This document shows, piece by piece, positions 3,803 to 50,449 of a stretch of 54,007 bases of DNA. Under the pieces are notes generated by a model that saw only the letters and a program-made list of their open reading frames with translations, was not told where the DNA came from and ran no database searches. The position numbers were made by a program, and so were the translations under genes. This DNA comes from an uncultured Clostridia bacterium (GTDB taxonomy: Bacteria > Bacillota > Clostridia > Oscillospirales > Feifaniaceae), in assembly GCA_904420075.1 (NCBI GenBank), contig CAJFTX010000005.1, positions 1 to 54,007 on the forward strand, written 5' to 3'. The stretch's first letter is position 1. The number at the start of each line of letters is the position of its first letter.

Positions 3803-3831
3803 GGAACAATCTTCCTTTCTCTTTGAAGTTG

Positions 3832-3840
3832 TGGTATAAT
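3832..3840 (+). promoter_or_regulatory. Extended -10 promoter of RNA element A
   Basis: The sequence reads TGGTATAAT, an extended -10 (TGN + TATAAT), with no good -35. The start of transcription would fall near 3847. The same TGN-TATAAT sits at the same distance (19 bases) before the first conserved hairpin of element B at 16019-16027. Confidence 0.6.
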
Positions 3841-4087
3841 GACCTCACGAAATGCTGACAAAATCAAAGATTTTGAGAATTTCGAAGAACATGGAATCAC
3901 AAAAAGTGGGGCTTTCGCCCCCTGCCGTCCACGCCTTCGGCGATCTCTTTTTGTGGTGGAATAGCCTCGCGAACTGGGAGCGAAATCGGTGATTTCGGCC
4001 CCTTCGGAGAAGAATGGATTGGAAAACAGGGGCTTTGCCCTTTGCGGGCGGAGGGCCGCCCGGCGCCTCGGGCGCTCCTGTTTGTAT
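3841..4087 (+). ncRNA. Structured RNA element A (unassigned family, paralogue of element at 16028)
   Basis: This intergenic stretch has no convincing ORF but strong secondary structure, and it aligns with 16028-16272. Seen: helix P1 (3850-3856 with 3876-3882, one mismatch) enclosing P2 AAAATC/GATTTT with an AAA loop; P3 CACAAAAAG (3898-3906) with CTTTTTGTG (3947-3955), closing smaller hairpins; three bases later a conserved 53-base block (3959-4011) containing GGGAGC, TTCGGCC and CTTCGGAGAA; then 14 bases to a terminal helix AAACAGG (4024-4030) with CCTGTTT (4077-4083). Many P1/P2 differences from the other copy keep base pairing. It is not a riboswitch, tmRNA, RNase P or SRP RNA that I can recognise. 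The remaining 4088-4224 holds only GC-rich imperfect hairpins such as 4172-4190. It may be a free RNA or a 5' leader of the glycosyltransferase genes. Confidence 0.6.
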
Positions 4088-4224
4088 CATGGAATGCTGT
4101 GACGGAGCGGACGGGAGCACGACGTCCCCGCGCGGCTGGGACTTGCGGCGTACCGCTTTGAAAATACGGGTGGACAGGCCCCGGCCGTCCGTCTGAGGGA
4201 CACTGATGTTATCTATGAGAGGAC

Positions 4225-4971
4225 GTGAGCAGATATGCAGGGGGGATGGATTTGATCTCGGTTGTGATTCCGGTCTATAACGAGGAGCGGCGGATCGCCG
4301 ACACGGCGGCGCGGGTCTGCGACTTCTTTGAGGGGCGGGGCGAGGCCTATGAGCTCGTCTTTGTCAACGACGGGAGCACCGACGGCACGGCGGCGGCGAT
4401 CGCGGCGCTCGGCCGGGCGGAGGTGCGCGACGCGGGCTATGCGGAGAACCGCGGCAAGGGCTACGCCCTGCGCCGGGGGGCGGAGGCGGCCGCGGGGGAG
4501 GTGCTGCTCTTTATGGACGCGGACCTCGCCTACGGGCTGGAGCCGGTGCCGGAGGCGCTCGCGCTGATCGGGGAATACGACCTTGTGATCGGCTCGCGGC
4601 CGATGGCAAGGGAGGCCTATGCGAACTATCCGCTGGTGCGGCGGATCACCTCCGGGGGATTCCGCGCGGTGGTGCGCGCGCTCATCGGCGTGCCCTACAG
4701 CGACACCCAGTGCGGCTTCAAGTGCTGGCGCGCGGCGGCGGCGAAGGCGGTCTTCCCCCGCTGCGGGATCGACGGGTTTGCCATCGATCTCGAGGCGCTC
4801 GCCTGGGTGGAGAAGCTCGGCTTCTCGGTGCGGGAGATTCCCGCGGTTGTCGTGGAGCACGGGGACTCGAAGGTACATGTGGTGCGCGACTCGGTGCGGA
4901 TGTTCCGCGACGCGCTGCGGGTGCGCCGCGCGGTGAGAGAGGGGGGGCCGGATGGAAAAGCGCGGGTTTGA
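4225..4971 (+). CDS. Family 2 glycosyltransferase (polyprenyl-phosphate sugar transferase type)
   Basis: A GT-A fold glycosyltransferase of about 248 residues. Seen: N-terminal ISVVIPVYNEE, the nucleotide-binding VNDGSTDGT, the metal-binding MDADLAY, and DTQCGFKCW followed by an alternating acceptor region. DTQCGFK is typical of the dolichyl/undecaprenyl-phosphate glucosyltransferase branch (Alg5/DPM1-like). These enzymes move a sugar from a nucleotide to a lipid phosphate at the inner face of the membrane. No C-terminal membrane helices are present. Start choice is uncertain: the GTG at 4225 has a ribosome site almost touching it, and the in-frame ATG at 4246 (giving MDLISVV) matches the family better. 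The gene overlaps the next one by 20 bases, and the partner is a membrane glycosyltransferase that could use the lipid-linked sugar. Confidence 0.88.
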   Translation: MSRYAGGMDLISVVIPVYNEERRIADTAARVCDFFEGRGEAYELVFVNDGSTDGTAAAIAALGRAEVRDAGYAENRGKGYALRRGAEAAAGEVLLFMDADLAYGLEPVPEALALIGEYDLVIGSRPMAREAYANYPLVRRITSGGFRAVVRALIGVPYSDTQCGFKCWRAAAAKAVFPRCGIDGFAIDLEALAWVEKLGFSVREIPAVVVEHGDSKVHVVRDSVRMFRDALRVRRAVREGGPDGKARV

Positions 4972-15937: not shown

Positions 15938-16018
15938 GGAGAAACCTCCCGTTTTTTTGATTGTAACACAGCGCTCCGGCGGAGGGAAGGCCGGAATCTT
16001 TTTTACCGGCCGGACTTG

Positions 16019-16027
16019 TGATATAAT
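16019..16027 (+). promoter_or_regulatory. Extended -10 promoter of RNA element B
   Basis: TGATATAAT, an extended -10 (TGN + TATAAT at 16022-16027), with a T-rich rather than consensus -35. The first conserved helix begins at the same distance as in element A. Confidence 0.6.
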
Positions 16028-16295
16028 AAAAACCCAAGCCGCTAACGAAATCGGAGATTTCGAGCGGGTACCCCGGAACTTTGATCTGTGCAGAAAGGCC
16101 GCTTGTGCGGCGAACGACGGGTTTCGCCCGCCTGGAAGCGCCAGGGAACTCCCTTTCTGGCAGAATAACCTCACAGAGTGGGAGCAAAAATCGAAAGGTT
16201 CGGCCGTTTCGGAGAACACCCGCTGCAACAACAGGAGCAGTCGCTCCTCCGGGCGGCTTTGTTCCTGTGGTACGAAAGTCACGCCTGCGGGCGCA
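16028..16295 (+). ncRNA. Structured RNA element B (unassigned family, paralogue of element at 3841)
   Basis: Second copy of the intergenic RNA. Helices: P1 CCGCT (16039-16043) with AGCGG (16063-16067); inside it, after AAC on one side and G on the other, P2 GAAATC/GATTTC with a GGA loop. P3 is CAGAAAGG (16091-16098) with CCTTTCTG (16152-16159), enclosing three small hairpins. Three bases later comes the conserved block 16163-16216 (GGGAGC, TTCGGCC, TTTCGGAGAA). After 14 bases a terminal helix ACAGGA (16231-16236) pairs with TCCTGT (16263-16268). Element order and spacings equal those of copy A while helix sequences differ in paired fashion. A small CGCC/GGCG hairpin closes the 3' side at about 16282-16293. 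The next gene appears to have its own promoter, which favours a free-standing RNA, but a leader role remains open. Confidence 0.6.
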
Positions 16296-16299
16296 GAAA

Positions 16300-16345
16300 G
16301 CGGGGAAGGTTTTCGAAAAAAACCTTCCCCGCCGTGTGATACAAT
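16300..16345 (+). promoter_or_regulatory. Hairpin plus extended -10 in front of yhaO
   Basis: A 14-bp inverted repeat (16300-16313 with 16319-16332) forms a strong stem without a following T run. It is followed at once by TGATACAAT (16337-16345), an extended -10 that repeats most of the element B promoter (TGTGATAYAAT). This looks like an RNA 3' hairpin followed by a separate promoter for the yhaO/yhaN pair. Confidence 0.45.
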
Positions 16346-50373: not shown

Positions 50374-50449
50374 GGGCCCGTAGCTCAGCTGGGAGAGCGC
50401 TGCGTTCGCAACGCAGAGGTCGAGAGTTCGATCCTCTTCGGGTCCACCA
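50374..50449 (+). tRNA. tRNA-Ala (anticodon CGC)
   Basis: 76 bases with encoded CCA. All four stems pair: acceptor GGGCCCG/CGGGTCC with the G3-U70 pair that is the identity element of alanine tRNA, D arm GCTC/GAGC, anticodon arm CTGCG-TTCGCAA-CGCAG, T arm GAGAG-TTCGATC-CTCTT. The loop gives anticodon CGC, reading codon GCG. Accessory DNA of lower GC content begins directly behind it. Confidence 0.97.

Follow-up and report, generated by a model that had tools for sequence, protein, structure and literature searches.

A structured, dispersed repeat of Clostridia found inserted at promoter -10 boxes

The window arrays and their repeat unit

Two regions of the window (the whole stretch of 54,007 nucleotides analysed here, from a contig of an uncultured Clostridia bacterium) resemble each other, at positions 3832-4087 and 16019-16272, and raise the question of whether they are RNA genes whose fold is selected in place or copies of a repeat. 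All features listed in a preliminary description of the two regions were found at these positions, among them the inner and outer helices and the 19 bases that separate the -10 box from AAAATC in array 1 and from GAAATC in array 2. The likeness between the regions is thus real, but the way in which they had been parsed was not: both are made up of two tandem copies of one unit. Comparison of all copies in the genome revealed that the supposed conserved block of 53-54 bases (about 3952-4009 and 16156-16216) is a second copy of the box and the first hairpin.

The unit has a length of about 122-150 bp and consists of a -10 box, a hairpin H1, an AAC linker and a hairpin H2, the 3' arm of H2 being the next -10 box. 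It reads TRTGnTATAAT, two bases, a CCTC-A-stem H1 (inner AAAATC-nnn-GATTTT type), GAG-AAC and a long H2 stem over GC-rich hairpins, followed by the next TGTGGTATAAT. All parts of both arrays lie on the forward strand. Array 1 starts with a left, target-type extended -10 box, TGTGGTATAAT, at 3830..3840, and no good -35 was present 16-18 bp upstream of it. According to folds and pair counts, H1 of the first unit occupies 3844..3887 (CTC A CGAAAT, inner AAAATC-AAA-GATTTT, ATTTCG AAG) and H2 occupies 3896..3957 (ATCACAAAAAG / CTTTTTGTGGT enclosing GC-rich hairpins), its 3' arm continuing into the next box. This middle box at 3952..3962 is degraded (TGTGGTGGAAT) and is at once the 3' end of unit 1 and the start of unit 2. 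H1 of unit 2 follows at 3966..4009 (fold; 102 bits with the covariance model), within the block mentioned above, and H2 of unit 2 at 4024..4085 (fold) corresponds to the terminal ACAGG/CCTGT helix of the preliminary description. A right remnant box, TTTGTATCAT, ends the array at 4081..4090, and the gene downstream encodes a glycosyltransferase with a start near 4246.

Array 2 has its left box, TGTGATATAAT, at 16017..16027. As judged by fold and covariance model, unit 1 spans 16028..16155 with H1 (CCGCT AAC GAAATC GGA GATTTC G AGCGG) and H2 (CAGAAAGG..CCTTTCTG), and unit 2 spans 16156..16278 with a degraded box CTGGCAGAAT, H1, H2 and a right remnant CTGTGGTACGAA; both window arrays are partly degraded. 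A further extended -10 box, TGTGATACAAT, at 16335..16345 lies 31 nt 5' of the ATG of a metallophosphatase gene (16377) and is likely that gene's own promoter box.

A covariance model (R1) was built from 14 units of the own genome, including the four window units, which as part of the training set scored 102, 101, 62 and 59 bits. R1 detected 23 units in the own 1.9-Mb genome (G000); seven further genomes of the same family had no unit. DNA searches of the own genome yielded eight loci for the first element and two for the second; several copies were about 90% identical at unrelated loci, and some were located at the ends of contigs, as is usual for repeats. The arrays comprised one, two or three units. 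One of these (L003 / L012:3692-4070) consists of three successive units that clearly differ, the last of which is missing most of H2. The start of contig C73 and the end of contig C15 (L005 and L006) have about 85 identical bases of one element in common, indicating that the assembly probably breaks inside the repeat and that these contigs may be neighbours. With these 23 units in G000 and at least 30 in a quarter of genome G094, the element is short, non-coding, multi-copy and dispersed. A coding repeat was rejected, as by inspection the look-alike frame GGAG-AAC-ATG differs between copies.

Compensatory change and relatives of the family

Both stems are maintained by compensatory change across the family, and the earlier view of paralogous, structured elements with compensatory changes was borne out. 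In the own genome 83.5% of cells were paired, with 32 two-sided changes compared to 15 in shuffles. For 35 H1 modules taken across genomes, 92.1% of cells were paired and 80 had two-sided changes compared to 23 in shuffles; shifting the partner by one base lowered pairing to 44-54%. By folding energy alone, the two window regions stood out weakly (z = -1.84 and -3.04) and three sister units strongly (-5.6 to -6.1). The stem of H1 is free to vary and may even be multibranched, while the skeleton AAC-CUC-A ... GAG-AAC is preserved. Compensatory changes among paralogues need not mean an RNA gene, since they can reflect selection on the fold of a mobile element.

Homologues beyond the own genome were numerous. 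An exact pattern for the box and the start of H1, for which about two chance matches are expected in 257 Gb as estimated from base counts, matched 70 stretches in public genomes, nearly all of them from Clostridia. Fifty-eight arrays scored with a second covariance model (R2), and most of the few exceptions were lone promoter-like matches. Within the order, R2 detected the unit in 20 of 295 genomes and in 12 of 148 genera, often in many copies; the distribution is patchy, with genome-specific, near-identical subfamilies at unrelated loci. A phage or plasmid origin was rejected, as viral contigs had no exact pattern match and no plasmid match was obtained. Streptococcus phage Javan191 (27912-27944; L118:3001-3033) contains an isolated H1 hairpin of 33 nt with 97% identity, located between two phage structural genes and with GAGAACATT a few bases beyond.

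The preliminary description had recognised no known riboswitch or housekeeping RNA, and this agrees with Rfam 15, in which none of the 4227 families gave a relevant match at gathering or permissive thresholds. For either window region nothing convincing was obtained at E<=5 (top score 20.8 bits, gathering score 56), and for the elements in relatives there was no match above gathering and no related family at E<=0.5. The sole gathering-level match in the window was a tRNA gene at 50374-50446. RaiA, Clostridiales-1 and other Rfam RNAs were rejected, as no family covariance model gave a convincing match. A likeness of GTGGTATAATAACCTC to loop B of the hairpin ribozyme was likewise rejected because no Rfam family matched and the TATAAT part is variable, being altered to GCTAAATAACC, GATTGAATAACC and AATAAGAACC in promoterless units. 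The papers searched contained neither the sequence nor a comparable Clostridial repeat. As far as Rfam 15 and these papers show, this is an undescribed family of promoter-targeting, promoter-rebuilding structured repeats.

Several variants were observed along the way. A promoterless subfamily, AATAAG-AAC-CTC/CCC-A..GAG/GGG-AAC-CTTGTT, occurs in L126, L127, L128 and L132 (position 1501, matched strand), in several families, directly 5' of an intrinsic terminator and mostly just past or containing a stop codon; it may be an ancestral or a domesticated form. In Acetivibrio sp. MSJd-27 (L073, L089) a different hairpin repeat (AAAGACACGCCGT..ACGGCTGA..TTTATGGAATCATC) resembling H1 of genus g27 lies 3' of the right box, and we regard it as a second, diverged subfamily in that genome. 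In Bacillota S31_Bin1 (L058) a tRNA-like segment (GGGGGCGTAGCTCAGCTGGGAGCGC) is repeated downstream of a promoter-box match and may represent truncated tRNA duplicates.

Insertion at the -10 box of existing promoters

Orthologous loci were compared in four genomes of genus g27, namely the sister species G094 and G029 and the more distant congeners G295 and G296; gene names at these loci are a reading of translated starts, not annotation. At a desulfoferrodoxin locus, G094 is filled with seven units (GGATAGGGTATAAT/AACCTCAC..seven units..AAAATATGATATAAT/AAAAAAGCAGAAAGATAC, a slash marking the junction), and G029 (GGTTAGGGTATAAT/AAAATAACAGGAAGATAC), G295 and G296 are empty. A response-regulator locus is filled in G094 (end ..GGGCATGCTATAAT/AAAAACAACGTATTGACAGGGAGG) and empty in G029 (GATGTGCTATAAT/AAAAATAATGTATCAACAGGGAGG). 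The reverse occurs at a thioesterase-like locus, filled in G029 with three units (CATTTTAGGCTATAAT/AACC..three units..GGTATGCTATAAT/AAATTTAAATTG) and empty in G094 (CATTTTAAGCTATAAT/AAATCCAAACT) and G296. In all three sister pairs the left flanks agree as far as TATAAT, and agreement resumes directly after TATAAT on the right, giving the layout TATAAT/AACCTC...TATAAT/gene, and the empty sites are without any trace of a unit. At least seven further loci, including those of dihydroorotase-like, GNAT, glycosyltransferase, peptidase, mraY and lysophospholipase genes, are filled in G094/G029, and G295, G296 or both have an empty site there with an intact -10 box. At many loci both sister species carry units, which indicates that movement is slow. 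The filled and empty pairs all stem from this one genus and are other than the window's own two loci, for which no usable orthologous empty site was present (relatives in the family are without the second gene, and the first locus is not syntenic).

The junctions place the insertion point at the -10 hexamer; the left flank belongs to the target, and the right box is contributed by the element. TATAAT flanks the insert on both sides, which is compatible with a 6-bp duplication as well as with the element's own end. The box and the internal arm form inverted repeats; the two ends of the element are not inverted repeats of each other. Pairing counts assign the two boxes in the same way. The H2 arm following GAGAAC matched its own right box with 9.93 of 11, compared to 9.15 (SD 0.08) for right boxes of other units, and 0 of 300 shuffles were as good. 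Against its own left box the match was 9.16 compared to 9.06 (SD 0.07), without preference for its own. As the right box co-varies with its own H2 arm and the left box does not, the right -10 is the element's and the left -10 is the target's.

Left boxes of first units are preceded by a -35 hexamer at the canonical spacing. First-unit left boxes had a mean upstream match to TTGACA of 3.66 of 6, compared to 2.56 (SD 0.10) in 500 shuffles, and TTG/TTTA was found exactly 17 bp upstream in 25 of 70 cases, the -35 lying outside the repeat. In at least 11 arrays the right box is located 28-55 nt before a co-oriented start codon with a ribosome-binding site, and the nearest downstream gene is on the same strand in 37 cases and on the opposite strand in 10. 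The element is inserted exactly at the TATAAT of existing promoters, in the order (-35)-17-(-10)-element-(-10)-gene, a well-supported arrangement.

Arrays lengthen, and at the same locus the number of units differs between sister species. Near-identical units with a period of about 126 bp in G094 indicate tandem duplication. Arrays mixing quite different subfamilies (L051, L053, L074, L094) fit repeated insertion into a regenerated right box. Array growth would accordingly proceed by both tandem duplication and fresh insertion into the newly made right box. That the arrays are nothing but local duplications of a promoter segment with convergent hairpins, without any mobility, would account for tandem, near-identical copies with a period of about 125 bp, but is contradicted by dispersed near-identical copies, by one unit family at dozens of unrelated loci and genera and by empty sites without trace, and is hardly credible.

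The preliminary description had favoured a selected RNA fold over repeated DNA. The elements are instead dispersed and tandemly reiterated, with near-identical copies at unrelated sites, and the filled and empty sites at promoter -10 boxes of sister species mark the hits as those of a mobile repeat, an outcome that the preliminary description had itself named as a refutation. We consider it probable that the family is a non-autonomous, structure-recognised mobile repeat that targets -10 boxes and restores them on insertion. Its unit would extend from AAC-CTC through H1, GAG-AAC and H2, with the 3' arm of H2 ending in an extended -10 box (TRTGnTATAAT). A recombinase provided in trans would recognise the folded strand, as we infer from the retention of AAC-CUC-A...GAG-AAC and H2 alongside free stem sequence. 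Insertion at the downstream edge of the -10 would reflect either the melted, single-stranded state of this part in the RNA-polymerase open complex or its sequence. The right end would restore the -10 box, the downstream gene would keep an extended -10 promoter, and insertion may be tolerated for this reason; transcription from the original promoter would then run through the array and yield a 5' leader rich in hairpins. In this model the recombinase is putative, as are the route via a single strand and any function of the RNA. More specifically, the element might move as a folded single strand that a structure-specific recombinase joins into the melted -10 of open complexes, so that active promoters would be landing sites rebuilt with each insertion; this version we regard as doubtful.

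Small repeats carrying promoters were already known. With insertion at the -10 hexamer and a replacement -10 at the other end, the family, which occurs in many uncultured gut Clostridia, would represent a promoter-homing element that protects the host gene. It would allow the idea that DNA integration is guided by promoter opening to be tested cleanly, and it points to a putative recombinase.

Alternative readings and known systems

Twelve orthologous sites were compared between species. In several of them (SH3, dapE-like, GT4 and ruvC loci) H1 is intact in one species and weakened or broken in the other without compensation, indicating that the fold is not strictly maintained in place. Such decay is as expected if the fold serves movement and resting copies decay, and function at some loci remains compatible with it. 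The arrays could be of mobile origin and, once transcribed, have been adopted at some promoters as cis-acting 5' leaders in attenuation or mRNA stability. Arrays do lie between a real promoter and a gene, and two species share some of them at orthologous sites, but others decay at such sites, and we lean against this possibility.

A further reading, close to that of the preliminary description, is that the arrays are structured RNA genes or 5'-leader riboregulators with their own promoters, selected in place and perhaps bound by one protein via AAC-CUC-A..GAG-AAC. The strong compensatory pairing, the complete -35/-10 5' of the first unit and internal units of G094/G029 that lose TATAAT yet retain H2 pairing all argue for it. 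However, apart from the uncompensated decay at several orthologous sites and the patchy presence, filled and empty sites fall exactly at -10 boxes of unrelated genes and unit number is unstable between sister species. Nor was a coherent downstream gene set seen: genes downstream of arrays are mutually unrelated, no gene family recurs beside arrays in three or more genomes, and no recurrent associated gene was present within 2.5 kb. RNA genes selected in place are improbable.

Returning to a mobile repeat that rebuilds its -10 target, no autonomous copy of the element was seen in searches for the families PF01797, PF01548 and PF00078. Y1 (PF01797), IS110 (PF01548) and RT (PF00078) are all missing from carriers G000, G205 and G236, with completeness of about 93.5%, 84% and 99%, respectively, and some of the three are also missing from other carriers; they were rejected as necessary mobilisers for this reason. 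Movement via single-stranded DNA by a Y1 (HUH) transposase, as an element of IS200/IS605 or REP/RAYT type, would explain the hairpins at both ends without classical terminal repeats and the insertion 3' of a fixed target with a target copy at the element's own 3' end; nevertheless, Y1 transposase is missing from carriers G000, G094, G029, G296, G135, G205 and G236, and we give this route little credence.

In insertion sequences of the IS200/IS605 family the target precedes the left end, the right end carries an equivalent of it, and both ends have hairpins. The Clostridial element likewise has its left target outside, an equivalent site at the right end and hairpins at both ends. In contrast, no tnpA/tnpB was seen inside, and the target is a 6-bp TATAAT in promoters; the element is not filed under IS200/IS605 because the defining Y1 enzyme is absent. 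Subterminal structures of the IS200/IS605 ends are described in PMC6006769. REP/REPIN sequences with RAYT are high-copy intergenic hairpins, structure-based and non-autonomous (PMC3116915). Here, by comparison, the unit is a two-hairpin one of about 125 bp with a fixed -10 target; membership in the REP/REPIN class was rejected, as most carriers are without the associated RAYT (Y1_Tnp) transposase gene.

Correia repeat enclosed elements, a MITE of Neisseria, are small, dispersed, often located just 5' of genes and equipped with sigma70-like promoters, and their transcripts are processed by RNase III (PMC10969869). The element described here is similarly a small, dispersed, promoter-carrying repeat upstream of genes. 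Unlike in Correia elements, insertion takes place at the -10 box itself, which the far end restores; the hairpins H1 and H2, whose stem sequence is free, take the place of conserved terminal inverted repeats; and tandem arrays are formed. BOX, RUP and SPRITE of Streptococcus pneumoniae are modular multi-copy intergenic repeats with variable module number, for whose potential transcripts stem-loops are predicted; they are enriched between convergent genes (PMC3049150). The Clostridial family resembles BOX in being modular, folded and multi-copy, but sits in promoters, has clear empty sites and displays no sequence relation to these repeats. Structured RNAs of Clostridia in Rfam such as raiA and Clostridiales-1 are also intergenic structured candidates, and none matches the element. 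As in a MITE, the element is short, non-coding, multi-copy and dispersed, with empty and filled sites in three sister-species pairs. In its manner of working it resembles a MITE or a BOX-type repeat, and it differs from these in its fixed -10 target, in the rebuilding of the box, and in that its fold is conserved instead of the sequence of its ends.
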